Shown: positions 5,626 through 41,900 of the stretch, one piece after another
How positions within the stretch are numbered: the stretch's first letter is position 1
Layout: each line of letters begins with the position of its first letter
Assembly: GCA_021811105.1 (NCBI GenBank)
Contig: JAJZPM010000002.1
Span: forward strand, 1-64,000
DNA length: 64,000 bases
Direction: 5' to 3'
Source of the DNA: Nitrospirota bacterium
GTDB taxonomy: Bacteria; Nitrospirota; Thermodesulfovibrionia; Thermodesulfovibrionales; UBA6898
Translations under genes and position numbers: made by a program
The notes under the pieces: generated by a model
The model's input: the letters and a program-made list of their open reading frames with translations, nothing else
Told to the model about the DNA's origin: nothing
Databases searched by the model: none

Positions 5626-7125
5626 TTATCCCGCGAGTTTCTTTTCCTCGAGTTTCGCCTTGAGGATATCGCCGAGGCTCCCGAGCCCCGAGGACCCGCC
5701 GTCCGCCTGCTTGACTGTCCCGACGTACTCGGCGTATTCCTCTTTGGTTTTCTTGTCCAGCACCGCCTTGCGACTGAGTCTGATCTTGCCGCTCTGCTGC
5801 TCAACATCGGCCACGATCGTCTGTATTGCGGTCCCTGAGGCGAACATGCGCCTGGGGTCTGCTCCGTCGGTGGCGCCTATTTCGGAGTTGGGGATGAGGC
5901 CGGAGAGCCCGCCCTGCAGCTTCACGAAGATCCCGAACGGCATCACCTTGTCGACAGTGCCCTCCATCAGAGTCCCGACCTCCGGCAGCACCACGACCTT
6001 GGGGACCGGCTTAGGCTGCATCGAAAGCGAGATTTTGCGGTTTTCGGGGTCAACGCCGAGCACATACACCTCGACCTCCCGGCCGGCCTCAACCACCTCC
6101 CTGGGGTGGTTGATCCGCCTGCCTGCGCCGAGGTTGGATATATGGATAAGGCCTTCGACACCGGGTTCGAGTCTGACGAACACGCCGAAAGGCGCAAGAC
6201 GCACAATGGTGCCGCTCACCCTCGTGTCGACGGGATATCTTTCCGTAACCCCGGCCCAGGGGTCCGGCTCCAGTGCCTTCAGGCTGAGGGTCAGGCGGTT
6301 CTTCTCCCAGTCGAGGGCGATGATCCTAACGGTCACTTCCTGCCCGACCGAAAGCACGTCCTCCGGCCTCTTCGAACGGTCCCATGAAACCTCGCTCGCC
6401 GGGATCAGTCCGTCGACCCCTCCGAGGTCCACGAAGATCCCGAAATTCTGTATCGACCGCACAGTCGCGCTGATATCCATGCCCACCGACAGCGACTCTC
6501 TTAGCTTGCCGACTTTTGCCCTTCTCTCTTCCTCGAGCAATGCCCTCCGGGACAGAATCACGTTCTTCCCGTTCTCCTCGAACTCGAGGACCCTAAACGG
6601 GAAGGACCTGCCGAGGAACAGTCCACCCTCGCGGCCGCCCTTCAGGTCGATCTGCGAAAAGGGGCAGAAGCACCTTACCTCGCCTACCGATACCTCGAAT
6701 CCGCCCTTTACCTCGCGCTTGACGGTCCCGGTTACGGCCACTCCCGCATCAAAGGCGTCACGGAGAGCGCCGAGGGTGGCGGCAGAGTATCCGTTGACAA
6801 GCGTCGTCATTCTCCTGACCCCGTCCCTGACGTTGACGTAGTATGCCTCTATTTCATCTCCGGCCTTCACCGAACAGCTGCCGTCCTCGTTCGTCAATTC
6901 GGCCAGGTCGATCACCCCTTCGCTCTTGCCGCCGAGATCGATGTAGACAAGGTCGCCGGATATGCTGACCACACTCGCCCTGACCTTCTGTCCCGGTGCA
7001 AGTCTTTCCTGCAGGCCCGAACTCTTCTCGAGAAGCTCGGCGAAGTCCTCTTTCGCCTCGACCGCAACGTCGGCCCTGGCCGGATTATTTACCTCAGTAG
7101 GATTTTCGATATTTTCATCAGACAT
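5626..7125 (-). CDS. rpsA: S1 RNA-binding domain protein, ribosomal protein S1-like
   Basis: A 499-residue protein with an acidic N-terminus and about five S1 (OB-fold) repeats at roughly 45-115, 120-190, 205-278, 290-365 and 375-450. Each shows the G-x-V-x4-FG-(I/V)FV-x-L core (for example NFGIFVDLGGVDGLIPASE). Ribosomal protein S1 recruits mRNA to the 30S subunit. E. coli S1 has six domains, and the first two here are less canonical. It could be a secondary S1-family RNA-binding protein rather than the essential S1, since no ribosomal or cmk context is present. The ATG at 7125 is preceded by GAGG. Confidence 0.85.
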   Translation of the reverse strand: MSDENIENPTEVNNPARADVAVEAKEDFAELLEKSSGLQERLAPGQKVRASVVSISGDLVYIDLGGKSEGVIDLAELTNEDGSCSVKAGDEIEAYYVNVRDGVRRMTTLVNGYSAATLGALRDAFDAGVAVTGTVKREVKGGFEVSVGEVRCFCPFSQIDLKGGREGGLFLGRSFPFRVLEFEENGKNVILSRRALLEEERRAKVGKLRESLSVGMDISATVRSIQNFGIFVDLGGVDGLIPASEVSWDRSKRPEDVLSVGQEVTVRIIALDWEKNRLTLSLKALEPDPWAGVTERYPVDTRVSGTIVRLAPFGVFVRLEPGVEGLIHISNLGAGRRINHPREVVEAGREVEVYVLGVDPENRKISLSMQPKPVPKVVVLPEVGTLMEGTVDKVMPFGIFVKLQGGLSGLIPNSEIGATDGADPRRMFASGTAIQTIVADVEQQSGKIRLSRKAVLDKKTKEEYAEYVGTVKQADGGSSGLGSLGDILKAKLEEKKLAG

Positions 7126-7289
7126 GGTTTAATACCTCACAGTCAATTTAAGTCCTCTTCGCCAAACTACGTCCGAAGGTTAATACCCTGAAGGAGTCTG
7201 AACTGACAGAGGTATTAAGTTTAAAAAATTTAGTGCCTCCGAGTCAATGGCGATCCCCACACACAGGCAAAGGTAGAGAAAAGACCAGG

Positions 7290-7398
7290 CAGGGCAAGAG
7301 GTGAAAAGGCTAATGGTGCATGGGAGTAAGGCGCAAGGAGTGAGGAAGTTTTTTACCCCTTACCCCTGGCCCCCTACTCCTCCTCGTGTTAAGGTATA
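7290..7398. repeat. Mirrored repeat spacer 5
   Basis: A G/A-rich arm (GTAAGGCGCAAGGAGTGAGG, about 7327-7346) is followed by a C/T-rich arm (CCCCTTACCCCTGGCC... to CCTCC), with complementary blocks as in spacers 1-4. It ends just before the small cysteine-rich ORF at 7406. Confidence 0.6.
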
Positions 7399-7405
7399 CT
7401 TGAAT

Positions 7406-7573
7406 ATGGAGAAGAAGATAATGGTGCTGAGGAAGAACGCATGTCCCGACTGCTCTTTCTGCCAGTGCTGCAGCCCGACCCGCTGCAGCATCTGCCTGCC
7501 GAAGGGCGGCGAGAAGCAGAAGGACAAAAAACCGAAGGACAAAATCCACAAACCGCTCTTCCGCCCCTATTGA
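7406..7573 (+). CDS. Small cysteine-rich protein
   Basis: A 55-residue ORF starting MEKKIMVLRK. It has seven cysteines within about 21 residues (CPDCSFCQCC...CSIC), then a lysine-rich tail (GGEKQKDKKPKDK) and PLFRPY. The cysteine pattern could bind zinc or an iron-sulfur cluster. I recognise no family, there is no strong Shine-Dalgarno, and the ORF abuts a repeat, so it may be chance coding. In its favour, the composition is far from random and the ORF lies between two gene-sized units without overlap. Confidence 0.4.
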   Translation: MEKKIMVLRKNACPDCSFCQCCSPTRCSICLPKGGEKQKDKKPKDKIHKPLFRPY

Positions 7574-7637
7574 CCCTGCAACGAACTAACAAGCGCAGTA
7601 CTTATTAACCGTCTCAAAATTGAATTTGCCTCACCGG

Positions 7638-7827
7638 AAAATCTCCCCTCGCCCCTGCCTACCGGCAGGCAGGCCTTTCCGGGATCATAACTCCCCCTTT
7701 ACCCCCTCTTATCTTTTCTCCTCGGCGAATCCGCCTGAGTGCGGAAAGAGGGGGTGCCGAAGGCGAGGGCGTTATTCCAGAGGGGTATAATTCCTCCCTT
7801 TGGCAAAGGGAGGACAGGAGGGATTTT
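7638..7827. repeat. MITE-like intergenic element, copy 1 (190 bp)
   Basis: The element begins AAAATCTCCCCTCG and ends GGAGGGATTTT, so the termini are imperfect inverted repeats. It contains an inner palindrome CCTGCCTACCGGCAGGCAGG and a CCTCCCTTTGGCAAAGGGAGG hairpin. Related copies lie at 33740-33907 and 51119-51196. It fills the gap between the small cysteine-rich ORF and the S26 peptidase gene; nothing else is seen in this 304-bp gap. Confidence 0.75.
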
Positions 7828-7877
7828 ATAAAAAAATGTTGTCACTATTCCAACAACTTAGGACGAAAAGGCCGTCG

Positions 7878-8327
7878 TCAGCCGAGCAACGAGGCGAGAC
7901 GTTTTGCGAGGGAGAAAAGAAAGACATGCCGGGAGAACCTCGAAGGCCGGAGTAGTCCCCTGGCGATGAGGATGCTGAACGGGAACCTGAGGTGAAAGTT
8001 GAATCCCCTGCCCGACACCCTGACCACCCTGCCGAGCGTGTTTTCGATGGAGGTGAAGCCGTCGTCTGTCAGACAGGCGTCGCCTCTCGTGACAACGCCG
8101 GAGGTCGTCACCTTTACGACGCGGTGAAGAATGAGCCTGCCTTCGGGTGCCTTGCAGAGGGTGGTATCGCCTATATGCAGGGACTGTGCGGGCTGCACGA
8201 CGACAGTGTCGCCGTCTTTAATAAAGGGCGACATGCTGGATCCGCCTGCGATAAAGGAGAGATTGTTCCCCTTTCGGAGCACCTCTTCGGCGATCCCGCG
8301 GAAATCGTCCATCCCGATATGGAACAT
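7878..8327 (-). CDS. S26-family signal peptidase-like protein (SipW/S26B type)
   Basis: A 149-residue peptidase-like protein. Residues 28-36 (GGSSMSPFI) match the signal-peptidase nucleophile motif (Ser31), followed by KDGDTVVV and HIGDTTL. The lysine general base of bacterial LepB is replaced by the LILHRVV motif (His68), as in SipW/ER-type S26B enzymes. Classical S26B proteins are membrane-anchored; here only a short C-terminal hydrophobic stretch is present (about 120-149), so it may be soluble or peripheral. It is divergent from the PqqD-like gene with about 110 bp between starts. Its placement suggests a role in removing the leader of the peptides encoded downstream, which is inference. 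ATG 8327 or 8312 could be the start. Confidence 0.75.
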   Translation of the reverse strand: MFHIGMDDFRGIAEEVLRKGNNLSFIAGGSSMSPFIKDGDTVVVQPAQSLHIGDTTLCKAPEGRLILHRVVKVTTSGVVTRGDACLTDDGFTSIENTLGRVVRVSGRGFNFHLRFPFSILIARGLLRPSRFSRHVFLFSLAKRLASLLG

Positions 8328-8333
8328 GCCTCC

Positions 8334-8363
8334 ATCTTATTCCTTTATTGGCGGAACTGTCAA
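8334..8363 (-). promoter_or_regulatory. Possible sigma-70 promoter of the S26 peptidase gene
   Basis: On the minus strand TTGACA (8358-8363) and TAAGAT (8334-8339) are separated by 18 bases. The -10 lies about seven bases before the ATG at 8327, implying a leaderless transcript or use of the ATG at 8312. Confidence 0.35.
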
Positions 8364-8438
8364 TTGCGGGGCGCTTGGATGAGTCCGCTTTCGCGGCCGG
8401 GGGTTTATTTTTCCTATTTCGGGGCATTATACTATCTC

Positions 8439-8732
8439 ATGCCCCTATCTTTGGAGAGCGTCCCGAGAAGAAGCTCGAAGGTCGTCTTCAGAAAGATCGA
8501 AAACGAGTATATCCTCGTCCCCCTGTTGTCCACGACCGAAGAAGCAGAATCCATCTTCAACCTGAACGAAATCGGCGCGGTCATATGGGAAAAGGTCGAC
8601 GGCGGCAAGAGCATCGCCGGTATAATCGACGAGCTCTGCAGAGAGTATGATGCCGACGCCGATACAATCCGCAAAGACGTATATGCCTTCATCAACGACC
8701 TCCAAGAATGCAGTCTCCTGGAACTGACATGA
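8439..8732 (+). CDS. PqqD-like RiPP recognition element protein
   Basis: A 97-residue protein of the PqqD family. These winged-helix RRE domains bind the leader of a precursor peptide and present it to the modifying radical SAM enzyme. Family features are visible: an alternating hydrophobic strand (ENEYILVPLLSTTEEAESIFNLNEIGAVIWEKVDGGKSI), then IIDELCREYDADADTIRKDVYAFINDL. The ATG at 8439 excludes an upstream antisense extension. The stop (8730-8732) overlaps the start of the radical SAM gene (8729), indicating translational coupling. Confidence 0.85.
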   Translation: MPLSLESVPRRSSKVVFRKIENEYILVPLLSTTEEAESIFNLNEIGAVIWEKVDGGKSIAGIIDELCREYDADADTIRKDVYAFINDLQECSLLELT

Positions 8733-9805
8733 AGACGCTGTCCTATGCCGACTTCAGCAGCAGGCTCCACGAGGCTTCTGCCGGCAAACGGATACCGGTC
8801 AATGCGACGCTGGAACTCACGTACCGGTGCAACAACCGCTGCGTCCACTGTTATTGTTCTCTCCCTGCGAATGACCCTTCGGCCGCCGGGGAGCTTTCGA
8901 CCGCCGAGATAAAGAGGCTCTTCGACGGCCTCGCTTCGATGGGCAGCCTCTGGCTTCTCCTCACCGGTGGAGAGCCGCTCCTCAGGGAAGACTTTGAAGA
9001 GATTTACATGCATGCAAAAAAGAAGGGGTTTCTCATCACCTTCTTTACAAACGGGACGATGGTCGATGAAGAGATCGTCGCACTTCTCGCAAAATATCCT
9101 CCGTTCGTCGTCGAAATAACCCTTTACGGATCAGCCGAAGAGACATATGAGAAGGTCACGCGCGTCAAAGGATCGTATAAGAAGTGTTTGAGCGGAATCG
9201 AGAAAATTCTAAAGGCGGGCATCCAGCTGAAACTCAAGACGATGGCGCTCACCATCAACCAACATGAGATCGCCGAGATGGACAGGATGGCGCGGGAATG
9301 GGGGTGCGAATTCAGATTCGATCCGGTCATCCAGAAACGGATAGACGGCAACGATTACTCCACCCCTGAGAGCTGCCGGATACCCCCCGAGGAGGTGGTC
9401 CAACTGGACAAGACGTTCCCGAAGAAAATGGAGGAATACAGGAAGTTCTGCGATAGGTTCATCAAGGGGCCCGCTGGCAGCAGGAGGCTTTATCGTTGCG
9501 GGGCAGGCGTAGGATCAGTCCACGTAAATCCCTGTGGTCTCGCGACGGGCTGCTCCATGATGGTACGGAACAGTTTTTCAGTGCGTGAGCATTCGCTGGG
9601 CTGGATCTGGGAAGAAGGGATACGGTCGGTAATCGACCGGGGGAAAGACTTTCCGCTCCCCTGCGATGACTGCCGACTGGTAAATCTCTGCGGCCAGTGC
9701 GCGGCATGGAGCATCCTAGAAAACGGGGGGCCTGAAAAAGAGGTTGAGTATTTGTGCAGGATAGCTAAAATAAAGGAGAAGGAATTCGATTTCCTGAGGA
9801 GATAA
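8729..9805 (+). CDS. Radical SAM/SPASM peptide-maturation enzyme
   Basis: A 358-residue enzyme. The CX3CX2C radical SAM motif (Cys34, Cys38, Cys41 in TYRCNNRCVHCYC) binds the [4Fe-4S] cluster that cleaves S-adenosylmethionine. The LTGGEPLL motif follows near residue 76. The C-terminal third has a SPASM-type cysteine set (YRCGAG, NPCGLATGC, CDDCRLVNLCGQC, EYLC) for auxiliary clusters. Such enzymes install thioether, C-C or epimer modifications on ribosomal peptides. The start at 8729 is chosen over 8708 because of the ATGA overlap with the PqqD-like gene. Two precursor genes follow 12 and about 210 bases after it. The specific reaction cannot be inferred. Confidence 0.92.
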   Translation: MKTLSYADFSSRLHEASAGKRIPVNATLELTYRCNNRCVHCYCSLPANDPSAAGELSTAEIKRLFDGLASMGSLWLLLTGGEPLLREDFEEIYMHAKKKGFLITFFTNGTMVDEEIVALLAKYPPFVVEITLYGSAEETYEKVTRVKGSYKKCLSGIEKILKAGIQLKLKTMALTINQHEIAEMDRMAREWGCEFRFDPVIQKRIDGNDYSTPESCRIPPEEVVQLDKTFPKKMEEYRKFCDRFIKGPAGSRRLYRCGAGVGSVHVNPCGLATGCSMMVRNSFSVREHSLGWIWEEGIRSVIDRGKDFPLPCDDCRLVNLCGQCAAWSILENGGPEKEVEYLCRIAKIKEKEFDFLRR

Positions 9806-9817
9806 AGAAGCGGAGTT

Positions 9818-9976
9818 ATGAAGCTGAAGAAATGGTCAAAGCCCGAGTGCACGCGGGTCAAACTGGTGCCCGAGGAAACGCTAGTTCAAGGGTGTAAGAC
9901 TATCTCCAGCGGTGGTAAGAATACGAATAACTGTCAAGCTGCTCCCGGCAACTCTTGCAATGTCGCTGTGAGTTAA
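9818..9976 (+). CDS. RiPP precursor peptide 1
   Basis: A 52-residue peptide with a CGGAG ribosome-binding site before the ATG. Its leader contains KKWSKPECTRVKLVPEE and ends at GCK (Cys26). The core (27-52) is Gly/Asn/Ser-rich with Cys39 and Cys47 and ends NVAVS. The leader is nearly identical to that of precursor 2, while the cores share no obvious similarity, as expected for substrates sharing one leader-dependent enzyme. It lies 12 bp after the radical SAM gene. It is too short for routine ORF calling. Product structure is unknown. Confidence 0.85.
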   Translation: MKLKKWSKPECTRVKLVPEETLVQGCKTISSGGKNTNNCQAAPGNSCNVAVS

Positions 9977-10013
9977 ACGACAGAACGGCCGCAATAGGAG
10001 GGGAATTCACTTT

Positions 10014-10187
10014 GTGAAAACCGGCGAAAAAAAGAAATGGTCAACGCCTGAATGCACGCGGGTAAAACTGGTGCCCGAGGAGTCTGTGCTCTGGGGATGC
10101 AAGACGTGGACTGGTTCTGTTGCAAAAGACGGTTTTTGGCAGGGAACATGTATCACCGGGGCATCGTGCCCCAGCTTACAGAGTTGA
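10014..10187 (+). CDS. RiPP precursor peptide 2
   Basis: A 57-residue peptide starting with GTG after a strong AGGAGGGG (9996-10003). The leader region KKWSTPECTRVKLVPEE and the GCK junction (Cys29) match precursor 1 at 19 of 24 aligned positions. The core contains Trp31, Trp42, Cys46 and Cys52 and ends SLQS. Both precursors therefore end in serine, next to an HprK-like kinase gene. An overlapping ORF in another frame (10052-10252) is not supported. Confidence 0.85.
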   Translation: MKTGEKKKWSTPECTRVKLVPEESVLWGCKTWTGSVAKDGFWQGTCITGASCPSLQS

Positions 10188-10238
10188 CCGATAGAAACAT
10201 ATATACCGACCTGCCGCTCTGTCCCAAGTTCCTAAGCA

Positions 10239-11126
10239 ATGCAGACATATAGATTTTCTATCGGCGAATTGCGAATACAGCTCAAGTGGCCTTCCGAGCG
10301 GTTTCAGGTCATTCTTGATTCTGCGCTCGACGCCTTTTCTGCCGCCGCCGATTCCGACCTTGCGGACATCTCCTTCACTGTAACGGAACCTTATCCGATC
10401 GATTTCAGCTCTTATCGTGAGCTCTTCAGTTCGCTCCCGGGCGGCCTATGGAAGGCATGGAAATCGGCAGACGAAGAATCTTATATCTTTTCGCTTCACG
10501 AAGTCCTGACCGATAATAGCCCTTACCGTATCGCGGTGGCCGACAACACCATTCGGAAGATCGAGGTCTTCAGTCCTGACGCCGGCCGGAAGAGTATCAG
10601 CCCCCTCGAATACCCGCTTGACGAACTCGTCATATCCGGCCATCTGAACATCAACGGAATCGGGATGCTGCTCCACTCCGCTATGGTATCCCTGGACGGG
10701 CGAGGCTATCTCTTTTCCGGCACCTCAGGTTCCGGCAAGTCGACGATCTCGGAACTCTGGCAGGCTGAGAAGGAGGCCGAGGTCCTTACGGACGAAAGGG
10801 TCATCATCAGGGAAAAGGACGCGGCGCTATGGGCCTTCGGCACACCCTGGCACGGGACCGCCGGGGTCCACAGGAACAAAGGGGCGGTCATAGACAGGAT
10901 TTTTTTGCTGAGGCACAGCGACCGGAACGAATTGAAGAGGCTCTCGCCGATCGAGGCGGCTAACAGGCTTATGGTCAGGTGCTTCCCTACCTTCTGGCAC
11001 AAGGAGGGCATGCAGTTCGCCCTGGATTTCTGCGCCCGCATCGCCTCTGGAATCCCCTGCTACGAATTCGGGTTCGTCCCGGATGAATCCGCCGTGAATT
11101 TCATCATGGCGTCGCTCGTAAAATAG
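10239..11126 (+). CDS. HprK-like P-loop kinase of the peptide cassette
   Basis: A 295-residue protein resembling the C-terminal kinase domain of HPr kinase/phosphorylase. It has a histidine-containing LLHSAMV strand (His146), a P-loop GTSGSGKST (161-169), and LTDERVII in the position of the HprK L-x-DD segment. The N-terminal 130 residues are unlike HprK. Related HprK-like proteins occur in several RiPP cassettes, and the lasso-peptide kinase of the paeninodin cluster phosphorylates a C-terminal serine. It follows precursor 2 by 51 bp on the same strand. Phosphorylation of the terminal serines is a hypothesis. Confidence 0.82.
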   Translation: MQTYRFSIGELRIQLKWPSERFQVILDSALDAFSAAADSDLADISFTVTEPYPIDFSSYRELFSSLPGGLWKAWKSADEESYIFSLHEVLTDNSPYRIAVADNTIRKIEVFSPDAGRKSISPLEYPLDELVISGHLNINGIGMLLHSAMVSLDGRGYLFSGTSGSGKSTISELWQAEKEAEVLTDERVIIREKDAALWAFGTPWHGTAGVHRNKGAVIDRIFLLRHSDRNELKRLSPIEAANRLMVRCFPTFWHKEGMQFALDFCARIASGIPCYEFGFVPDESAVNFIMASLVK

Positions 11127-11204
11127 TTGAGGAAAAGAGTGGCGCAGCAGCGAATTTCATTGACAAGTCTCCTCCATTTTGAAATAATAACTTCAGGGTT
11201 CCTA

Positions 11205-11678
11205 ATGATACAACGCTTATTTATATCCTTCACGTTTATCCTCGTTCTTTTCTCCGCAGCAACATTCGTCTCTGCGGCCGACTCCCCGAAGGATACCCTT
11301 TTAGGCCATAACGGCAAAGAAAAGGAAGTCTGCGGCCTCATCAAAGACAACCTGCAGCGGGGTGTCGGCGCAAAGGCGGTCACGAAGACGAATATCCGGC
11401 TGGGTAACGAGGTCTGTTATGTAGTCCGTTGTGCCATCGACGGAGGGGGAGAGCTGAAGCTAATCATTGCCGGCGCGGTCGAAGCGGGCGCTACCCCGGA
11501 CGTTGTCTCTAAGTGTTGCGTTGAGGCAGGCGCTGAACCGGCGAAGATAGCGGAAGTCCTTCAGGGCATGGGGGAAGGACTCGGCTATTCTCTACCGGGA
11601 GATCAGTTTGTCCCTATGGACACCGCGACGGTCGGCAGGAACGCCGGCACGAGGTTCGTCAGTCCCTCGTCTTTCTGA
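11205..11678 (+). CDS. Exported hypothetical protein, cysteine-containing
   Basis: A 157-residue protein with a clear signal peptide (MIQRLFISFTFILVLFSAAT... cleavage after VSA). The ATG at 11205 is preferred over the upstream TTG because it begins the signal peptide. The mature part has paired cysteines (KEVCG, NEVCYVVRC, SKCCVEAGA) and a repeat-like alternation of GAxPxxV helices. I do not recognise the family. It lies 78 bp after the kinase gene and might belong to the cassette transcript, but nothing in its sequence ties it to peptide maturation. Confidence 0.7.
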   Translation: MIQRLFISFTFILVLFSAATFVSAADSPKDTLLGHNGKEKEVCGLIKDNLQRGVGAKAVTKTNIRLGNEVCYVVRCAIDGGGELKLIIAGAVEAGATPDVVSKCCVEAGAEPAKIAEVLQGMGEGLGYSLPGDQFVPMDTATVGRNAGTRFVSPSSF

Positions 11679-13792: not shown

Positions 13793-15373
13793 ATGAAAAG
13801 AAACTTTCTCTCTTTCATTGTAGTCACCCTCTTCATTCTTTTGCCGATTGCCGACTGTTTCGCTGAGGAAAAGTCCCCACCCGCTCCAATTGTCGATTCC
13901 GGTCATGCGGGTTCCCAAAGCGAGGTCGAGATCTCGGTATTCGCGACAAAGGGTGAGGCGGAAAAGCTCGCCGAGAAGGTGAGAACAGGCGGGTTCGAGA
14001 CAACGGTGCGCGAATACACTGCAAAAGGGGGCCGGACCGTTTATGGGGTTTTCGTGATAGTGCACGAAGCACCTCCGGGAGGGCGGGTCAGGTTACCGCT
14101 TATGGAATCCGGCAAAGAAGCAGTTTCCGGGGCACCGCCTCTGGGGGAGAGACCGATCGGCGTATCAGGGGTCCCGAAGGACATCTTTGCGAGGAGGGCG
14201 AGCTACTTCCATGCGGCGCTTGCCGTACAGGGGATTTATACCGACAATGCGTTCAACAGCAATACGTTCAAGAAAAGCGACTTCAGCACCATATACTCCC
14301 CTGAATTCTGGGTGTCGGTGCCGCGTCTGAACCAGAGGCCGGAGGGGCTCGGGAGCATATCTCCCCAGTCGCCGGGCGGACTCCTGATCGGAAGGGGGCC
14401 TTACGACATGTCGAGACGGTATCAGGCATATGCCCATTATCAGGCCGACATCCCGCAGCATTCGCAGAACTCTCCTTCCGGCAACACGACGGTCCACACC
14501 GCAGAAGGGGGATTCACCTATAACCTTGCCAGCGGGGTATCCCTCGACCTGCGGGACACCTTCATCCGCTCCTACGAGACGGTAGACACGGCGGCACTGA
14601 CGGGGGCGGGAGAAGTCGACCGATACAAAGGCAATCTCTTCTATCTGCTCATCTCATACGACACGGGGAACAGGTTTCGCGTGAGATTCGATTACTCTAA
14701 TTTTCTGATCAGATATGATGCGGAGAGGAACTTCCCCAGGAACCGGACGGACAATTCGTTTTCCGGATACCTCTACTACAAACTGAAGGCGAAGACCTCG
14801 CTTTTCGTCCAGTATTCGTTTGTCGACGTAGGGTATGTGGAGGACGCAAGCCTGAACAGCACCGAACACGACGTCTACGGAGGACTCGAGTGGGACATCA
14901 CCGCCAAGTCCAAAGGCAGCGTCAAGGCCGGCTACGGGACCAAGGACTTCTCGAATTCGGGGACAAAGAACGACAGCCTTATCTTCGAGGCGAAGATAGA
15001 CCACCGGTTTACCCCTAAAACGTCTCTGGGGCTGACCGCATTCAGGAAGACCGGCGAAACCAATATCCCTTCCACGTTCTTCGTGCTCGCCCAGGGCGTG
15101 AGCGCCGATTATCAGCAGCTCCTCACGTCGCGTATCACTGGCTCCGTAATGCTCTCCTATACAAACGAAAAATACGGCGCCGACCTCACTATAGGGGAAA
15201 ACACTGCCGAAAGGAGAGACAACATATACCAGGCATCTCTCGGCTTTCAGTACGAGTTCAGAAAATGGCTCAAGGCAGGAATCGTCTATGTGTTCACCAA
15301 GGACGACTCGACCTTTCCCGAGTTCGATTATTCGTCGAACACCTGGTTTTTCAGGATAACTGGTTCTCTGTAA
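13793..15373 (+). CDS. Outer-membrane beta-barrel protein of exopolysaccharide operon
   Basis: A 526-residue protein with a signal peptide (cleavage after CFA, residue 24). A SPOR-like peptidoglycan-binding stretch (about 44-90, VEISVFATKGEAEKLAEKVR) is followed by a long region of alternating amphipathic strands rich in Tyr, Phe and Asp. The last strand ends WFFRITGSL, with a hydrophobic pattern typical of barrel closure. Barrels of this type occur in EPS/PEP-CTERM loci, presumably as accessory export or assembly proteins. It is first in the operon with the Wza-like, Wzc-like and ligase-like genes. Confidence 0.8.
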   Translation: MKRNFLSFIVVTLFILLPIADCFAEEKSPPAPIVDSGHAGSQSEVEISVFATKGEAEKLAEKVRTGGFETTVREYTAKGGRTVYGVFVIVHEAPPGGRVRLPLMESGKEAVSGAPPLGERPIGVSGVPKDIFARRASYFHAALAVQGIYTDNAFNSNTFKKSDFSTIYSPEFWVSVPRLNQRPEGLGSISPQSPGGLLIGRGPYDMSRRYQAYAHYQADIPQHSQNSPSGNTTVHTAEGGFTYNLASGVSLDLRDTFIRSYETVDTAALTGAGEVDRYKGNLFYLLISYDTGNRFRVRFDYSNFLIRYDAERNFPRNRTDNSFSGYLYYKLKAKTSLFVQYSFVDVGYVEDASLNSTEHDVYGGLEWDITAKSKGSVKAGYGTKDFSNSGTKNDSLIFEAKIDHRFTPKTSLGLTAFRKTGETNIPSTFFVLAQGVSADYQQLLTSRITGSVMLSYTNEKYGADLTIGENTAERRDNIYQASLGFQYEFRKWLKAGIVYVFTKDDSTFPEFDYSSNTWFFRITGSL

Positions 15374-15438
15374 CCCCCGCTGCTCCGCCGCCGTTTCATT
15401 TCCTGTTGTTTTTCATTTATAATCTATAAGCGGAAATA

Positions 15439-16233
15439 ATGAAAAGATACTTTTTCGTCTTGCTTGCGGTCGTCTTTTTCTGCAGGGCCGAAATGACCTT
15501 CGCCCAGGATTATCTCGTTGGTGAAGAGGATATATTAAGGGTCACCGTCTACGATCATCCCGACCTCACCACTGTCGTGAGGGTCAGCGGCGACGGGGAG
15601 ATCAGGCTTCCGCTCATAGGGGACGTCAAGGTCTCCGGACTTTCCGTCACCCGGATTGCCGAAAAAATTTCGGGTCTCCTAGCCGACGGCTACATCGTGG
15701 ACCCGCATGTCACCGTGTTCGTCGAGGAGTTCAGGGCCAGAAAGACGATCATCATGGGACAGGTGAACAAGCCGGGCGTCTATACGCTGAGCGGCAATAC
15801 CACCTTTCTCGAGCTTCTTTCAAAGGCGGGCGGACTCACCAAGGATGCCGGGGACACGGCGATCATCAAGAGAAAGTCCGCCTCTCAGGGCATGCCGGAG
15901 CGCATCATCACGATCGACCTGAAGAAGCTCCTCGAGGAAGGAGATACGAGTTCGGACATCCCGCTGATGGACAACGACAACGTATATGTCGCAAAGGCGG
16001 GGGTCTTCTATATCACCGGCGAGGTGAAAAAACCCGACGCGTATAAATACGAGGAAGACACGACCGTGATAAAGGCGGTGACGATGGCCGGCGGGTTTAC
16101 GGACAAGGCGTCGACCGGCAAGGTGAAGATCATACGGAAGGTGCAGGGCAAGGAGAAGGTGATAGAGAACGCCGAAATGGACCAGGCGGTGCAGCCCGAC
16201 GACATAATCGTCATCCCGGAGAGCTTCTTCTGA
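15439..16233 (+). CDS. Wza-like polysaccharide export protein
   Basis: A 264-residue outer-membrane polysaccharide translocon component. A signal peptide ends near TFAQ (residue 23). The poly_export domain follows (DYLVGEEDILRVTVYDHPDL... VDPHVTVFVEEF). Two SLBB beta-grasp repeats are at about 99-160 (KTIIMGQVNKPGVYTLSGN) and 180-250 (FYITGEVKKPDAYKYEED). No lipobox is visible, unlike E. coli Wza, and the C-terminal membrane helix of Wza is absent, so it resembles shorter EpsE-type exporters. It pairs with the Wzc-like gene 27 bp downstream. Confidence 0.9.
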   Translation: MKRYFFVLLAVVFFCRAEMTFAQDYLVGEEDILRVTVYDHPDLTTVVRVSGDGEIRLPLIGDVKVSGLSVTRIAEKISGLLADGYIVDPHVTVFVEEFRARKTIIMGQVNKPGVYTLSGNTTFLELLSKAGGLTKDAGDTAIIKRKSASQGMPERIITIDLKKLLEEGDTSSDIPLMDNDNVYVAKAGVFYITGEVKKPDAYKYEEDTTVIKAVTMAGGFTDKASTGKVKIIRKVQGKEKVIENAEMDQAVQPDDIIVIPESFF

Positions 16234-16260
16234 GTTCCCGGCAGCGGACAGGATAAGGAC

Positions 16261-18459
16261 ATGGAAGAAGAGAAGGAGATACACTTAAGGGATTACCTGA
16301 AGATCATCGTCAAGAGGAGACAGCTCGCCTTCACGTTTTTTGGCGTAGTCTTCGCGCTGTCGCTGATACTGACCCTGTCGTCGACCCCCCTCTACATGGC
16401 GACAACCAAGGTCCTGATAGAAAAATCCGAGCCGAACAACCTCGCGATGATGAACATGTATTATACTCCGTACGACCCCGAGTTTTACGAGACGCAGTAC
16501 CAGCTCATCAAAAGCACATCCGTGGCGCAGAAGGTGGTCAAGGTGCTCAACCTCGACAAAACCTACAGCTCTTATTTCAGGGAAAAAGGGGAAGGTTTCA
16601 ATATCGTCGGCGGGACGATTGCATGGTTCAGGGACGTCTATTCGACGATCTTGAACGTGGCGGGAATGACCGGGCAGGCCCCGCCCGACCCGGCCGGCAA
16701 GGACGCCGAGTCCGAACTCCAGGCGAAGACGGACCGAATCGCAAAGACGATCGCGGGCTCGATTATAGTTACGCCGATCAAAAACAGCAAACTCGTCAAC
16801 ATCAGTTATCTGTCGGCGAACCCGGAATTTGCTGCGCTGATCGTAAATTCCGTGGCAAAGGCATATATCGAGGACCTTCTCGACATGAAGATGACCTCAT
16901 CCCGGTATGCGATGCGGTGGCTTACCGAGAAGGCAGAGGAAGAAAGGGTGAAACTCGAAAAGTCAGAAGAGGCGCTGCAGGAATATACCCGGGAGAAGGA
17001 CATCGTCACCCTCGAAAACAGGATCGCAATGGTCCCGGAGAAGCTCTCTGAGGTTGCGACGAAGATCGCCGCGGCCGAGACGAAGAGAAAGGAGATGGAA
17101 TCTCTCTACAACTCGGTAAAAGACCTTTCCAGGAACCCTGAGAAGGCTGACACCATACCCGCAATCGGCTCTGACCCCACTATTCAGTCCCTCCGGCTGC
17201 AGATATTCAAATCCGAGCAGAACATCAGCGACATGTCAAAAAAATACGGCCGGAAGCACCCTGCCATGATCACCGCCATGAACGACCTCAAGGGGCTGAA
17301 GGACAAGAAGGACCAGGAGATCAAAAGGGTGATCGAGTCGATCAAAAACGAGTATGAACTCGCCAAGGCGAACGAGGAGAACTTCCGCAAGATGGCCTCC
17401 CAGACAAAGGCCGATACGCTCAACCTGAACGAGAAATTTATCCAGTACGGCGCCCTCAAGAGGGAGGCGGAGACGAACAAGCAGCTGTTCGACGCGATCA
17501 TCAAAAAGATCAAGGAACAGGACATTACCCAGGACATCCAGACGGTCAATGTCTGGGTGGTAGAAAAGGCGGAGGTCCCCAAGTCGCCTGCAAAACCGAA
17601 TAAGGCCCGCAACATCCTGCTCGGACTCATCGTCGGTCTACTGGGAGGAATCGGTCTCACCTTTTTCGTGGAGTACCTCGACAATACTATCAAATCCGTC
17701 GAAGATACTGAAGCTAAACTAGGGGTGCCCGTACTCGGGGTCGTGACTCTCCTGAAGGACAAGGGGAAAAGCATGGACCAGATAGTGCGGGACGAGCCGC
17801 AATCAGCTTTTGCAGAGAGCTACAAGGTCCTGAGGACGGCGATACTCCTTTCCTCGGCCGTCAATCCGCCGAAGAATATCCTGATCACGAGCATATCGCC
17901 CGGTGAGGGAAAGACGGTGACTTCCGTCAATCTTGCGATGACGATCGCGCAGTCCGAGCACAAGGTCTTGCTTGTGGACAGCGACCTGAGGAAGCCGCGC
18001 ATCCACAAGATATTCGGAATGGACAATTCCAGGGGGCTCAGCACGTACCTCGCCGGTGCCTCCGACATGGACATCATCGGCAGGGACGTAGTCCCCAACC
18101 TGAGCATCATCCCCTCGGGCCCCATTCCGCCGAACCCCTCTGAGCTTCTCAGCTCCGGCAAGATGTTCGACCTTCTGAAGAGATTGAATGAGCTTTACGA
18201 TATTGTCATCTGGGACGCGGCCCCGCTTCTTACCGTCACCGACAGCCTCATCCTGAGCAAAATCCTCGACGGCACGATCATCGTGACGAAGGCGGGCGAG
18301 ACCACCTACGAGAACGTCGGCAGGGGGATGAAATCTCTCCACGACATCGAGGCGCATTTCCTCGGGGTCGTGATCAATGCGCTTGACGTGCGACATAGCG
18401 ATTATTATTATCACCGGTATTACAACTACGGCTCGGGCGAAAAGGACGCTTCAAAGTAG
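16261..18459 (+). CDS. Wzc-like polysaccharide co-polymerase with BY-kinase domain
   Basis: A 732-residue inner-membrane protein that controls chain length and export of polysaccharide. It has a Wzz domain with TM1 at about 24-42, a long coiled-coil periplasmic region (about 220-440), a PxP-containing TM2 region (KSPAKPNKARNILLGLIVG), then a bacterial tyrosine kinase domain. The kinase has Walker A SPGEGKT, Walker A' LLVDSDLRKP and Walker B DIVIWDAAP. The C-terminus has a tyrosine cluster (SDYYYHRYYNYG) that would be autophosphorylated. It is complete as a one-piece kinase. Confidence 0.94.
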   Translation: MEEEKEIHLRDYLKIIVKRRQLAFTFFGVVFALSLILTLSSTPLYMATTKVLIEKSEPNNLAMMNMYYTPYDPEFYETQYQLIKSTSVAQKVVKVLNLDKTYSSYFREKGEGFNIVGGTIAWFRDVYSTILNVAGMTGQAPPDPAGKDAESELQAKTDRIAKTIAGSIIVTPIKNSKLVNISYLSANPEFAALIVNSVAKAYIEDLLDMKMTSSRYAMRWLTEKAEEERVKLEKSEEALQEYTREKDIVTLENRIAMVPEKLSEVATKIAAAETKRKEMESLYNSVKDLSRNPEKADTIPAIGSDPTIQSLRLQIFKSEQNISDMSKKYGRKHPAMITAMNDLKGLKDKKDQEIKRVIESIKNEYELAKANEENFRKMASQTKADTLNLNEKFIQYGALKREAETNKQLFDAIIKKIKEQDITQDIQTVNVWVVEKAEVPKSPAKPNKARNILLGLIVGLLGGIGLTFFVEYLDNTIKSVEDTEAKLGVPVLGVVTLLKDKGKSMDQIVRDEPQSAFAESYKVLRTAILLSSAVNPPKNILITSISPGEGKTVTSVNLAMTIAQSEHKVLLVDSDLRKPRIHKIFGMDNSRGLSTYLAGASDMDIIGRDVVPNLSIIPSGPIPPNPSELLSSGKMFDLLKRLNELYDIVIWDAAPLLTVTDSLILSKILDGTIIVTKAGETTYENVGRGMKSLHDIEAHFLGVVINALDVRHSDYYYHRYYNYGSGEKDASK

Positions 18460-18551
18460 CGGCGATTCCAACGCAGTTTTTCGGGGATCGGTAGTTCGAC
18501 ATCAAACCGGGGCAGCCTGTCCCCGGAACGGAAAGAGGAATACCTGAAGGG

Positions 18552-20891
18552 ATGAAAGGCACGATATTCCTGATCTTTATTTTCCTGCTGGTCTTCCCGC
18601 CCCTTGCCTTCGGCACGGTCGAACATTGGTCGTATGCGGTGATGGAAGGCCTCACTTTTGTCTCCCTCGTGCTGTTCTTGTACAAAAGCGGGGAGGGAAA
18701 GGAACATCCCCTTTACCGGGTCCCGGGGGTCGTCCCGATCACGGTATTCCTGTTCTATATCCTTCTGCAGCTCGTTCCGCTTCCGCCCTTCCTGTTAAAA
18801 CTGGCCTCGCCGGGTACCCACGCCCTGTATACGGAAACCCTTTGGGCTGCAGAACCGGATTCATGGGGCTCCCTTTCCGTCAACAAAAGGGCGACGCTGG
18901 GCGAATTCTTCAGGATCGCCTCGTATGCCGCCTTCTATATACTCACCGTGCAGCTGCTGTCCCGTAAGGACTTGCTGAAAAAGACCGTCCGCATAGTTGC
19001 GGTCTTTATCGCCGGCCTCTCCTTTTTCGGCATGATCCAGCATTTTCTCTGGAACGGGAAGATATATTGGATCAGGGAATTGACGCTCGGGGGGACCCCT
19101 TTCGGTCCGTTTGTCAACCGCAACCACTATGCAGGCCTCGCAGGGATGGTCCTGCCTCTGGTCCTCTGCCTCTTCCTCTATTACCGGCCCCGCTACGCCT
19201 ATGTATCCCGCAGGGACAGGATAGTCGAATTCCTGAGCCATCCGATGACGAACATCCACTTACTCATCGGGTTTGCGGTCGTACTGATCGGGACATCGGT
19301 CTTCCTGAGCCTCTCGCGGGGCGGCATCATAAGTCTTTGTCTTTCGCTGCTCTTTCTGGCCAGCATGAAAATGCACAGGGGGAGGCAGGGCAGGGGGTGG
19401 ATATTCGGCGTTCTTATTATACTGGTCGTCTTCTATTCGGTCGGATGGTTCGGCTGGGACAAAGTGTTTCAGAGATTCGACTCCATCAGGGACACCCGGG
19501 GCAATATCACCGAGATGCGACTGCAGATATGGAAGGACAGCCTCGGCATCATAAAGGACTTCCCTCTTACAGGGACAGGTCTCGGCAGCTACATGAGCAT
19601 CTATCCTAAATATCGGTCCGTCCCTGCGGACGGGATTGTCGATCACGCCCATAATGATTACCTCGAACTCTTCTCCGATGGCGGCCTTATCGGCGCGGCA
19701 CTCTTCGGCTGGTTTTTGTATTCGGCCCTCGGCGGGACATACGCCGTCTTCCTGAGGAGACGGGAGCGCTACTCGGTTTCTCTCTTTATGGGTGCAGTCG
19801 CCGGCATCGTTTCCATCCTTATCCACAGTCTTACCGATTTCAATCTTCACATCGGAGCAAACGGACTCTACTTCTTCTTTCTTCTGGGGCTTGCGGTCTC
19901 GGCGGCGCATACGCGGATGCAGGACAGCCTGGAGGAGACATTACTGGCGAAGGCGACTCGTTTCAGTCCGCAGCTGCTGCTCCTGCCCGCGCTTGCGGTC
20001 CTGACGGCAGGCACGGTATTCAACGGCGGCGTTCTGGCGGCGAAGGCCGCTCTTTTCCCTCTCGGGGTAAAACCTCTCACGGCGCGGACATCGAAGACGG
20101 AACTCGGGACGGCGAAGGAGGCACTTCGCCGGGCAATTTTTTTCGACCCACTCTATGCGGAATATCGTTACCGGCTCGCGAACGCCGGGTGGTTTTTGGC
20201 AGACAAGAAAAGTGCGCAGGACAATTACGGCAAAGCGGTCAGTCTCTCCCCTGCTGACGGCAAGTACCTCCAGGCGCTCGGGTCCGTCCTGTCAAAGGCC
20301 GGAGAGGACAACAGGGCCGACCGCCTGTTCCTGGGCGGGCTGAGGTGCGACAGGGAAAACCCGCGGCGTTACCGGAGTTACGCGCTGTGGCTTCTTGCAA
20401 AGGGGAAGAGGGTAGAGGCGCTCGACTATCTGAAGTCCGCGATCGCCCTGGAGCCCGACAACACAAGGGATTATATCACGCTTCTCGTACTCTCCGGGTG
20501 GGATGATGCCGCGATCGGGTCCGTTCTTCCCGATATGGCAGCGCCCCGCATGCTCTTCGCCGACTATCTGGCCCATACAGGGAACAGGGCCATGGCCATG
20601 GAGGAATACCGTCTTGCCATAGGGCTTGTGAAAAACGATGCAGGGCCGGGACCCGCATACTTTTATCAGGCTTACCGCTACTTCATGCAAACCGGTATGC
20701 CGGACGACGCCCTGTCGGCGATGAGGAGGGCCGAAGAATTATTCCCGGCTGACGCAGGCATCAAGTTGACACTCGCAGAGACATATGAAAAGGCCGGGAT
20801 AGCGTACAGGGCGGCGGAAGAATACCGCAAGGTACTGATCATCGATCCCGGCAACGCAACGGCCAGGAAGAAGCTTGCGGAATCAAAATAG
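18552..20891 (+). CDS. O-antigen ligase/polymerase-like protein with TPR tail
   Basis: A 779-residue integral membrane protein with about 11-12 predicted membrane segments in residues 1-510. The Wzy_C/O-antigen ligase signature includes FLSLSRGGIISL and a following periplasmic loop with HAHNDYLELFSDGG, containing the histidine typical of WaaL/Wzy enzymes. The C-terminal 240 residues form TPR repeats (for example AKEALRRAIFFDPLYAEYRYRLANAGW and AEEYRKVLIIDPGNATARKKLAE). It likely polymerises or transfers the operon's polysaccharide. A 92-bp gap separates it from the Wzc-like gene. Confidence 0.88.
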   Translation: MKGTIFLIFIFLLVFPPLAFGTVEHWSYAVMEGLTFVSLVLFLYKSGEGKEHPLYRVPGVVPITVFLFYILLQLVPLPPFLLKLASPGTHALYTETLWAAEPDSWGSLSVNKRATLGEFFRIASYAAFYILTVQLLSRKDLLKKTVRIVAVFIAGLSFFGMIQHFLWNGKIYWIRELTLGGTPFGPFVNRNHYAGLAGMVLPLVLCLFLYYRPRYAYVSRRDRIVEFLSHPMTNIHLLIGFAVVLIGTSVFLSLSRGGIISLCLSLLFLASMKMHRGRQGRGWIFGVLIILVVFYSVGWFGWDKVFQRFDSIRDTRGNITEMRLQIWKDSLGIIKDFPLTGTGLGSYMSIYPKYRSVPADGIVDHAHNDYLELFSDGGLIGAALFGWFLYSALGGTYAVFLRRRERYSVSLFMGAVAGIVSILIHSLTDFNLHIGANGLYFFFLLGLAVSAAHTRMQDSLEETLLAKATRFSPQLLLLPALAVLTAGTVFNGGVLAAKAALFPLGVKPLTARTSKTELGTAKEALRRAIFFDPLYAEYRYRLANAGWFLADKKSAQDNYGKAVSLSPADGKYLQALGSVLSKAGEDNRADRLFLGGLRCDRENPRRYRSYALWLLAKGKRVEALDYLKSAIALEPDNTRDYITLLVLSGWDDAAIGSVLPDMAAPRMLFADYLAHTGNRAMAMEEYRLAIGLVKNDAGPGPAYFYQAYRYFMQTGMPDDALSAMRRAEELFPADAGIKLTLAETYEKAGIAYRAAEEYRKVLIIDPGNATARKKLAESK

Positions 20892-38744: not shown

Positions 38745-41700
38745 TTATGCGACAGAAAATGCCTGCCAATGATGTTGAGCCGCGGCAAGCGCGTGTTCCA
38801 TATTTTTCCTGACTGCCTCGGGTTTCCGTGCTACAGCGTACTGCCAAAAGCCAAACCTCTGATCGACGTTGACCGCCTTGATCCAGCGCTCTGCAGCGGC
38901 TGTCTTGACCGATTCAAGCTCATCGAATCCCTTAGTTTCAAGGACTAAATATGATTCGCCGGAGTCAGTGTTCAACCTTATTATGAAATCGGGAATATAA
39001 TCATGGCTCTGGCCGTTATGGAAATAAGGCACTGCAAACCCCAATCCCTGGTTTTTCACAAAAGCGGCAGTTGCAGGATGCGTATCGATATAATATGCCG
39101 CTGACTGTTCCCATATGCGGGTGTCAGCAACGATATAGTTAAGGTGCGACCGCTCAACTTCACGGACTTCTTTGCTCGTCCAGAAATCAACGTCCGAAGT
39201 CGAGCCCGGCCCTCTGCTTGACTCATAGACAGCTATCTCAGGAGTTTCACCTGTAATTACATCAGGCTTTATACTGTTTAAAAGGCTTTCTATGGCCCAG
39301 CCATAATACGGGGAAAGAAAAACATCAAGGATATTTGCTGGTTCGACAGGTTTTACTTTTTCGCTTAGATAATGATCAACTATTCCAGCAATTTGCGGAA
39401 AAAGGACCTGAACGGGAACCTCGCAACCTGGCTGTAATGCATACACCCGAGTCAAGTCACGGGCAAGCTCAAAGACCAATTCCTGAAATCGACGTCCTGT
39501 TCTAAATGGGTTCAAGTCCACACTTTCCAGCTTGCCCGGCCCCAAAAGAGACGGCCTTCCTTGATTGCTAAGAAGGGCCGCTTTCATCTGTACCTCGGGA
39601 GGAATGTGGAGAGGGTTCAGAATGAGTTCCGGAATTACATCCCATTCCACTGATATTCTGTTGCGTATTGCCTGAGTATATCCCTCAACGCGCGGAAACT
39701 TAATTTCATAGCGGACCTTCGCCGGGATAGCATAGACATGGTGCCGTTTGACCGGTGGTGTCCTGGGGCCATCCTTCGTTTCCTTGAAAGGAATTATTTC
39801 AAAGGGAACACCAAAAACCTTTGCTACTTCTTCAGTAAGTTTTCCGTCCTCACCTACATCGTAGTTTGATCTCCTCAGCCCACGGCCCACGACCTGTTCA
39901 CATAGCAGTTGAGACATGAAGGGCCGAAGGCCGATTATATGCGTCACGGTGTTACAATCCCAGCCTTCTGTTAGCATGCCGACGCTGACGATACAGCGGA
40001 TGTCTCTGCCGGGCGGGAATAACGGTCTGTCCAGTTTCTTTGCCAGTTCCTCGAAGCCCTCGGGATAGAGCGTTCGGCCCTGTTTGTCCCTGGGCCAATC
40101 CAATTTGCCGACGGTGTCTAATGTAAAATGCATCCATCGTTCTTCGTCGTTTTTCGCTTCTCCTGTTTCCATCTCATGAACAACCTTGGAGTCGACTCGA
40201 ATAGTATTAATCTTACCGTTATTACGAAACCCGTCGATCTTCGATGGCGGAATTCCAGCAGGAGGTTTATTCTCAGCAAGCCACTCATAAATCACCTTGG
40301 CGATCTTTATATTCTTGCAGACGAGAATAAACACCGGCGGCCTGGGATCATCCACGTTCTTCTCCCACTCAATGCAGAGTTCCGCCCAAAGCCCCCCGAG
40401 CATCACAATAGGTGTGTGCGCCCACTTGAGGATCGCCTCAGGTTTTGGCGCCTCTTTCTTGCCGCCACGCTCGGAAGTTGTCAGATGCGGCAAAATCCAG
40501 CGCCAGATATTGAAGTAGCCGGGGATCTCTTTGCCTGTTGTGTCACGCACTGCAAGCTGAGGTATCTTGGTAAGCCCTGATTCTATTGCATCGGTCAACC
40601 CAAATTCACTCACAACCCAGGGGAAGATGCGGTTGCTGTCCGGCCCCATTCTTCCAAGAAAGTATGGAGTTGCGGAGAGGTCAATGCAAAAATTTACGCC
40701 ACGATGTTTGTGAACGCGGTCAAGCCCCTCCACCCAAACAGTCGCTTCTTTGAAAAACTCCTCGATCTCCTCTTCTTCGCCAAAAAGGTCTTCCTCGCCT
40801 TCTTCTGGTTCTGGCCTCCTGATTCTGTAAGCGTGATGGGCCTCATCGTTAAGAACAAGGATGTTCTGCTTTGCGCCGATGTCCCGTCCGAGCACCCTGT
40901 TCAATAATGCGGTATCACTCTCCACATACTTCGTGGATTCAACCTTCACTTTCCTGAGATTTCCCTGTTTGTCGCGGTCCTCAGAAACGATATGCAATAT
41001 CCCGGCATCAACCTGCTTTGTCAGGTCCTCCAACGTCAGATACCGTGTGCCACGGGCGGTAGTTGTCTTTTCGCCGATGGTAATCGTTTCTGTAATGCTT
41101 ACAGGAACCCCGGTCTTTGCCACTTTTGCACTGATACCTCCGGTCTGCATGACCTGCGGCTCAAATACATGCCAGTTCGTTATCAGTATTCTCCCTTTTG
41201 TAAGGTCAGGCATGAAATGAGTCGGCACAAGATCACGGGTCCGGTAAATGCTCGCCTCTCCTCGTTCAGGGTCAAGTTCCTGCAGCCTGCTCCTGATTGG
41301 CACGCTCGGACAGACAACAAGCGCTGCATCGGAAAAGCGGCTGTCACTCTTATTGTTGATCTTGTTAAGGATGCTCCACGCGATTATCATGCCCATGACC
41401 GTTGTCTTGCCGGACCCAGTGGCCATCTTGCAGGCATAACGACTGAATGTCTTGAACCCTTCGGCTTTGCGATCTTCGCTCGGCTCGTCGGGTGGAATAG
41501 AAATTCCCTGCAAAAAGTCCGCGCGGGCTTCTTTAAGAAATATTACTGTCTCAGCAGCTTCAAGCTGGGCGAAGAAGAGTTTATGTTGTCTTCCGTCTCG
41601 ATGCCAGTAATTAAGGAGTTCATAGGTAACTCCTGTTACGCCACCCCCGCCTTTGAGCGCCAGAGGCAGCCATTCCTTCATGCGTTCACGAATGCGGTTG

Positions 41701-41900
41701 ATTAGTTTTAGCTCAATTGCAGTGCCGAGACCTTCTGCCGAATCAGAGAGCGATTTTACGGGCGGGCGATAATAATACATTGCCGGTCTCCGACCTTTTA
41801 CTTGCACCGGCGGCTCGCCTTCGATTATGCGCCAGTACGAAGAAGGCTCAAGGTAAGGAGAGTTTAATATTGGCTCGGGAACTTCGTAGCTGTTACTCAT
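38745..41900 (-). CDS. Type III-like restriction subunit (Res), DEAD/DEAH helicase-nuclease
   Basis: A 1051-residue helicase-nuclease. Walker A is MATGSGKTTV (about 159-168), a DEAH box lies in LNDEAHHAYR (about 350), and later motifs include VVGRGLRRSNYD (motif VI). A PD-(D/E)xK-type nuclease is suggested near the C-terminus by IPDFI (about 968) and LVLETKG (about 987). In type III restriction the Res subunit translocates or diffuses on DNA and cleaves after Mod recognises a site. It resembles the BPTD_3080-type proteins. Its start overlaps the end of the OLD-like gene by eight bases. Confidence 0.88.
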   Translation of the reverse strand: MSNSYEVPEPILNSPYLEPSSYWRIIEGEPPVQVKGRRPAMYYYRPPVKSLSDSAEGLGTAIELKLINRIRERMKEWLPLALKGGGGVTGVTYELLNYWHRDGRQHKLFFAQLEAAETVIFLKEARADFLQGISIPPDEPSEDRKAEGFKTFSRYACKMATGSGKTTVMGMIIAWSILNKINNKSDSRFSDAALVVCPSVPIRSRLQELDPERGEASIYRTRDLVPTHFMPDLTKGRILITNWHVFEPQVMQTGGISAKVAKTGVPVSITETITIGEKTTTARGTRYLTLEDLTKQVDAGILHIVSEDRDKQGNLRKVKVESTKYVESDTALLNRVLGRDIGAKQNILVLNDEAHHAYRIRRPEPEEGEEDLFGEEEEIEEFFKEATVWVEGLDRVHKHRGVNFCIDLSATPYFLGRMGPDSNRIFPWVVSEFGLTDAIESGLTKIPQLAVRDTTGKEIPGYFNIWRWILPHLTTSERGGKKEAPKPEAILKWAHTPIVMLGGLWAELCIEWEKNVDDPRPPVFILVCKNIKIAKVIYEWLAENKPPAGIPPSKIDGFRNNGKINTIRVDSKVVHEMETGEAKNDEERWMHFTLDTVGKLDWPRDKQGRTLYPEGFEELAKKLDRPLFPPGRDIRCIVSVGMLTEGWDCNTVTHIIGLRPFMSQLLCEQVVGRGLRRSNYDVGEDGKLTEEVAKVFGVPFEIIPFKETKDGPRTPPVKRHHVYAIPAKVRYEIKFPRVEGYTQAIRNRISVEWDVIPELILNPLHIPPEVQMKAALLSNQGRPSLLGPGKLESVDLNPFRTGRRFQELVFELARDLTRVYALQPGCEVPVQVLFPQIAGIVDHYLSEKVKPVEPANILDVFLSPYYGWAIESLLNSIKPDVITGETPEIAVYESSRGPGSTSDVDFWTSKEVREVERSHLNYIVADTRIWEQSAAYYIDTHPATAAFVKNQGLGFAVPYFHNGQSHDYIPDFIIRLNTDSGESYLVLETKGFDELESVKTAAAERWIKAVNVDQRFGFWQYAVARKPEAVRKNMEHALAAAQHHWQAFSVA

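Follow-up and report, generated by a model that had tools for sequence, protein, structure and literature searches.

The subject of this analysis is a peptide-maturation cassette at positions 7878 to 11126 of the window, which is the first 64,000 nucleotides of contig JAJZPM010000002.1 of the Nitrospirota bacterium assembly GCA_021811105.1. A minus-strand gene (7878..8327) encodes a 149-amino-acid S26-type peptidase, the proposed leader peptidase, and beyond a divergent intergenic region (8328..8438) a plus-strand operon of five genes runs in the opposite direction. The first two encode a 97-amino-acid PqqD-like stand-alone recognition element (8439..8732) for ribosomally synthesized and post-translationally modified peptides (RiPPs) and a 358-amino-acid radical S-adenosylmethionine (SAM)/SPASM maturase (8729..9805). 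They are followed by precursor peptide A of 52 amino acids (9818..9976; ...VQG and then CKTISSGGKNTNNCQAAPGNSCNVAVS; terminal Ser codon at 9971-9973), precursor peptide B of 57 amino acids (10014..10187; ...LWG and then CKTWTGSVAKDGFWQGTCITGASCPSLQS; terminal Ser codon at 10182-10184), and a 295-amino-acid HprK/PEPCK-fold kinase (10239..11126) with H146, a GTSGSGKST P-loop, D185-E-R187 and GTPWHG, the proposed C-terminal Ser kinase. An ATGA overlap joins the PqqD stop to the radical SAM start, the genes from radical SAM onward are spaced by 12, 37 and 51 bases, and the GTG start of precursor B is preceded by a strong Shine-Dalgarno sequence, AGGAGG. A promoter and terminator scan did not clearly exceed chance, nor is the one promoter-like match in the intergenic region, at 8363-8334 (minus strand), above chance.

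All the parts listed in the first-pass annotation, which was made from the letters of the window, are indeed there by Pfam, NCBIfam and open reading frame (ORF) analysis: the S26 peptidase, the divergent PqqD, the SPASM radical SAM enzyme, two precursors and the HprK-like P-loop protein. The library matches are strong for PqqD (PF05402, E=3.3e-19, 69 bits) and Radical_SAM (E=4e-26) and weak for S26 (Peptidase_S24, 23.5 bits) and HprK, and alignment and structure prediction confirm the latter two. The radical SAM gene had been recognized correctly and only its start, placed at 8708, needs revision; because the alignments of most homologues begin at residue 7-8 of the longer frame or farther in, ATG 8729 is most likely the true start. 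The suggestion that the cassette falls outside the named classes also holds, in that no curated NCBIfam model of a named RiPP cassette reaches its cut-off with the window proteins; among the matches listed, the generic PqqD model is the sole one over its cut-off, and marginally so (47.8 versus 46). The PqqD-like protein also gave a match in its own genome, and the genome has a second PqqD domain (G000:C31:61037-61222, locus L068) near a radical SAM gene that is only 25% identical to the cassette enzyme.

A contig search with the radical SAM protein as query gave three loci only. The genomes surveyed were 101 relatives (window genome included), 396 Nitrospirota genomes and 98 genomes of the class to which the Chlorobiaceae genome G405 belongs, and parts were counted by profile scan around 57 fetched radical SAM loci. 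Radical SAM homologues are present in 30 of the 101 relatives (own genome included) and in 60 of the 396 Nitrospirota genomes. The profile scan finds PqqD at 56 of the 57 loci, HprK at 54, a precursor at 54, S26 at 51 and the complete set at 49. Most loci without some part end at a contig border; the locus of one distant homologue (L083) is uncut yet has no precursor. The kinase and peptidase genes switch strand and the peptidase may lie up- or downstream, and because gene order varies in this way the linkage is not mere inherited synteny. A precursor-only profile has matches in 61 of the 396 Nitrospirota genomes, and enzyme and precursor occur together in 58, the enzyme alone in two (G099 and G300) and the precursor alone in three (G369, and G062 and G395 with internal stops; Fisher p=2.6e-63, where, as with the other co-occurrence p-value below, kinship among the genomes, many of them fragmented, makes the value overstate the number of independent events). 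Radical SAM homologues consistently lacking the small peptides had been named beforehand as the observation that would count against a RiPP cassette, and the opposite is seen, with a peptide in 58 of the 60 enzyme-bearing genomes. About one in seven of the Nitrospirota genomes sampled, or about 15%, thus carry the cassette.

The cassette takes a variant form in the distant Nitrospirota family f29, where it has two or three radical SAM genes. In the Chlorobia the precursor profile matches 7 of the 98 genomes, and five of six fetched loci have the radical SAM, PqqD and S26 genes, four of those five with HprK as well; in L136 (genome G443) HprK is absent from the fetched locus, which is cut at the relevant end, and about five precursor genes stand in tandem at about 6230-8078. 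We note that in a Chlorobiaceae metagenome-assembled genome the radical SAM and HprK-like domains are fused in one 679-amino-acid frame (L037:3784-5823), the kinase P-loop of which looks degenerate.

The precursors, which were chosen by leader similarity and not by their C-terminal ends, have the consensus xxxxxKKxYxKPxxxxVxLxPEEVxxxGCKx(n)Cx(n)Cx(n)GS, with W for Y in the window's branch. They share a leader of the form [WY]xxP...L..EE..L..GCK, and their cores are Cys-rich and variable; several paralogues may occur per locus, with cores that differ strongly in length and sequence. Thus a linked short precursor, a conserved leader and a variable core, the hallmarks of a RiPP system, are all present. 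In same-genus pairs of these small ORFs the ratio of nonsynonymous to synonymous substitution rates (dN/dS) is about 0.1-0.4 (about 0.24 for precursor B against L042, with dN 0.097 and dS 0.40), and the core evolves faster than the leader in three of four compared pairs. That 9818-9976 and 10014-10187 are chance ORFs is rejected by these ratios and by the homologues in 61 Nitrospirota genomes. The L-x-G-C motif could suggest a lipoprotein, a reading rejected because the leader is charged and a hydrophobic segment is absent.

The most striking feature of the precursors, overlooked by the first-pass annotation, is an almost invariant C-terminal Ser. A profile of the leader only, up to the residue preceding the first core Cys, was used to scan all ORFs of all loci then collected. 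At E<=1e-6 all 42 matches end in Ser, and at E<=1e-3 the terminal residue is Ser in 49, Thr in two and any other in none; the profile includes many of the matched leaders, so that the matches are not all independent, and the C-terminal end was never modelled. At E<=0.1 one Phe ending appears, from a broken gene. Ser makes up about 10% of the core residues. All six Ser codons are in use at the terminal position (TCN 40, AGY 16), so it is the residue and not the DNA that is under conservation. Such an end likely gives the kinase its job.

The predicted structure of the kinase (pLDDT, the predicted local distance difference test score, 94.5) matches PEPCK and HPrK/P, and His146, GxSxxGK, Asp185, Arg187 and GT.W.G are invariant in all 28 Nitrospirota kinase sequences, so that fold, P-loop and catalytic Asp are those of the HprK/PEPCK group. 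A tblastn search of plasmids with the kinase as query gave three weak matches with uninformative annotation. An HPr kinase homologue is known to phosphorylate the C-terminal Ser of lasso peptide cores, with the rest of the sequence mattering little (PMC8498205). Because the same fold here stands beside peptides that share little but the leader, the Cys residues and a terminal Ser or Thr, C-terminal phosphorylation is the likeliest kinase reaction, and by this analogy we think it probable that the kinase phosphorylates the terminal Ser of the cassette peptides.

The peptidase has Ser31, His68 and Asp83 invariant in 20 relatives, as in the S26B (SEC11-like) Ser/His/Asp type, and its profile matches human SEC11 (SEC11C) at E=1e-10; Foldseek with the model of the protein gives modest matches only, to the LexA/signal-peptidase fold. 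It has no signal or obvious membrane segment. As is typical of signal-peptidase sites, the position ahead of the first core Cys usually carries a small residue, Gly in most cases. Removal of the leader by this peptidase is the part of the scheme in which we have most confidence, and we regard it as quite probable. Fusions of the peptidase with a GNAT acetyltransferase (L043 and L044) and with a methyltransferase-like domain (L046) suggest that capping follows at the N-terminus which its cleavage exposes.

In the radical SAM enzyme the CX3CX2C motif and seven SPASM Cys are conserved in at least 93% of 29 sequences, and the nearest solved structure by sequence is SkfB (6efn), a sactionine synthase that makes thioethers. 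The core Cys residues and this relationship are the grounds for proposing that the enzyme crosslinks core Cys by thioether links, for which, by analogy, we would give slightly less than even chances. Three core Cys are present in 27 of 33 precursors, which is compatible with such crosslinks and no more.

Taken together, the operon on balance probably represents the biosynthetic genes for an unnamed radical SAM RiPP class. In the pathway that we infer, PqqD would bind the [WY]xxP...L..EE leader of both precursors and deliver the two peptides for modification of the core by the SPASM radical SAM enzyme, most plausibly through thioether links from the three conserved Cys. The core would then receive a phosphate on its C-terminal Ser from the HprK-like kinase, a reaction for which HprK homologues acting on lasso precursors such as paeninodin are the precedent, and the soluble, cytosolic Ser/His/Asp S26 peptidase would cut off the leader, probably right before the first core Cys. 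Several facts weigh against parts of this scheme. Other SPASM enzymes form C-C or ether links or cofactors rather than thioethers. Two Chlorobia peptides have a terminal Pro, and the Lys following the first Cys is swapped, usually for Ser, in family f29. In L139 (Chlorobia) the HprK-like protein is without the P-loop Gly and the peptide still ends in Ser, and in the SynChlorMet system an HprK-like protein stands beside peptides with other ends, so a terminal Ser is not required by the kinase fold as such.

The alternative that survives best, though we judge it unlikely, accepts the same RiPP cassette and takes the terminal Ser as a recognition or attachment point (for export, for a surface C25 peptidase, or for an ester or glycan), the HprK-like protein phosphorylating another residue or serving as a regulatory ATPase. 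The SynChlorMet pairing of kinase fold and other ends speaks for it, as do giant surface proteins that end in a gingipain-type C25 domain (E about 1e-80) and are encoded next to or within the cassette at 19 of the 57 loci (among them L050-L059 and L061-L067, for example L052:321-6308 and L067:4507-8727). The gene is a neighbour of PqqD, except in L053 and L067, where it separates the kinase gene from the peptidase gene, and among the 101 relatives 18 of the 19 genomes with a C25 gene carry the cassette (p=3.8e-11). Among the same relatives, however, the Ser is kept in the window genome and those nearest to it, which have no C25 gene, and Thr, the second acceptor of Ser/Thr kinases, is the only replacement at E<=1e-3.

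Considerably less likely is that the cassette is a divergent SynChlorMet branch with differences of degree only and no separate class. The likeness to SynChlorMet pointed out in the first-pass annotation is real and goes further than was stated, since bona fide ScmC loci fetched from Chlorobia for comparison share PqqD, radical SAM enzymes, HprK-like ScmC and an S26 peptidase as well. Yet the SynChlorMet models score far under cut-off on the window proteins (ScmC 24 of 125 bits, ScmD 31 of 100, ScmE 81 of 400 and ScmF 68 of 400), and the Scm cut-offs are likewise not reached by the radical SAM and PqqD proteins of Chlorobiaceae locus L037 or the radical SAM and kinase proteins of f29 locus L086. 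SynChlorMet has the ScmE and ScmF pair of radical SAM enzymes, whereas the window and most of the present loci have one, the f29 and Chlorobia variants having two or three. At the end of its candidate peptides stand, for example, Val, Thr, Ala or Phe and not the Ser found here, and the DxR...GTPW motif of the present kinase corresponds to CDD[EQM]...P[TS]W in its kinase. The Chlorobia genomes G405 and G443 each hold both cassettes; in L039 a SynChlorMet-like second set, whose candidate peptide ends in Asp, adjoins the cassette.

A cofactor pathway of the pyrroloquinoline quinone (PQQ) or mycofactocin type, in which only a few residues would be kept, as a small redox cofactor, and the bulk of the peptide lost, shares the PqqD and radical SAM parts and would suit the lack of a transporter gene in the window cassette. 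The variable cores, the several paralogues per locus and the faster evolution of the core are unlike cofactor precursors, and the original statement that there is no transporter, correct for the window, does not extend to two close relatives (L040 and L041), in which an ATP-binding cassette (ABC) exporter gene adjoins the kinase gene on the same strand; we consider this pathway very improbable. That these are unrelated neighbours or a decayed locus is refuted by the conserved sets of the 57-locus survey and by purifying selection, and can be dismissed.

More tentatively, to the point that we would rather doubt it in full, the preferred scheme may extend to a RiPP class of Nitrospirota and Chlorobia whose products are both crosslinked by the radical SAM enzyme and phosphorylated on the C-terminal Ser, with leader removal by a cytosolic SEC11-like peptidase and, in one branch, a giant C25 surface protein as a partner that uses the phosphopeptide. 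No description of the cassette was found in the open-access literature on HprK with PqqD and radical SAM, on SynChlorMet or on Nitrospira RiPPs, and we know of no earlier radical SAM RiPP class with C-terminal phosphorylation; if the scheme is right, this would be to our knowledge the first, and the role of "HprK-related" proteins in peptide cassettes would become directly testable. The leader profile, the DxR...GTPW kinase motif and the near-invariant Ser can guide genome mining and the design of a simple in vitro assay.

Several genes around the cassette deserve mention. Upstream, a small Cys-rich ORF at 7406-7573 (plus strand; CPDCSFCQCCSPTRCSIC) is 82% identical in L035/L006 and is in no other locus; it is probably a gene because its dN/dS is about 0.19. 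Immediately 3' of the kinase gene, 11127-11678 (plus strand) encodes a conserved, secreted-looking protein without a Pfam match; the peptidase is followed by two-part relatives of this protein in L050 and L052 and also in L054, where both share one frame. Downstream, at 13793-20891 (plus strand), lie exopolysaccharide-type genes (porin-like BBP2_2, Poly_export/SLBB, Wzz/GNVR with an AAA domain, and Wzy_C), homologues of which adjoin the cassette also in L035, L043, L050, L052 and L054. Farther away, 38745-46511 (minus strand) is a probable defence locus, with a type III methyltransferase, a weak type III restriction match and an OLD/Gabija/AriA-like AAA ATPase between them.

Among known systems, paeninodin-type lasso clusters have a PqqD-like B1 carrier, an HprK-like kinase and precursors with a C-terminal Ser (PMC8498205), together with a cyclase and a B2 protease where the present cassette has a radical SAM enzyme and an S26 peptidase. 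As was first remarked for the lasso-type cyclase, no ORF or domain of an asparagine-synthetase-like cyclase or B2 protease was found among the cassette genes and checked neighbours, and a lasso cluster is rejected for want of the cyclase. The sactipeptide and ranthipeptide maturases SkfB, AlbA, StsB and PapB are also SPASM radical SAM enzymes with Cys ligands that act on Cys-rich cores, but their models are far under cut-off here and the present cassette has a separate PqqD, kinase and S26 peptidase. GeoRSP (TIGR04302, TIGR04303) likewise combines PqqD-like and radical SAM/SPASM proteins (35 of 100 and 59 of 400 bits), and the window enzyme falls short of the PqqE model (87 of 381 bits) and of the mycofactocin radical SAM maturase model (112 of 265 bits). 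The Ni-superoxide dismutase maturation protease SodX (TIGR02754) is a similarly small signal-peptidase-like protein with another substrate (23 of 63 bits); it strips an N-terminal leader and so exposes a functional N-terminus. The nearest named system is SynChlorMet (TIGR04248-TIGR04251), which shares a PqqD-like carrier, SPASM radical SAM enzymes, an HprK-like protein, Cys-containing peptides with a W..P leader and, in Chlorobia, the S26 peptidase, and differs in not having the EE..L..GCK leader; by sequence comparison the present cassette appears to be a sister class built on similar lines.

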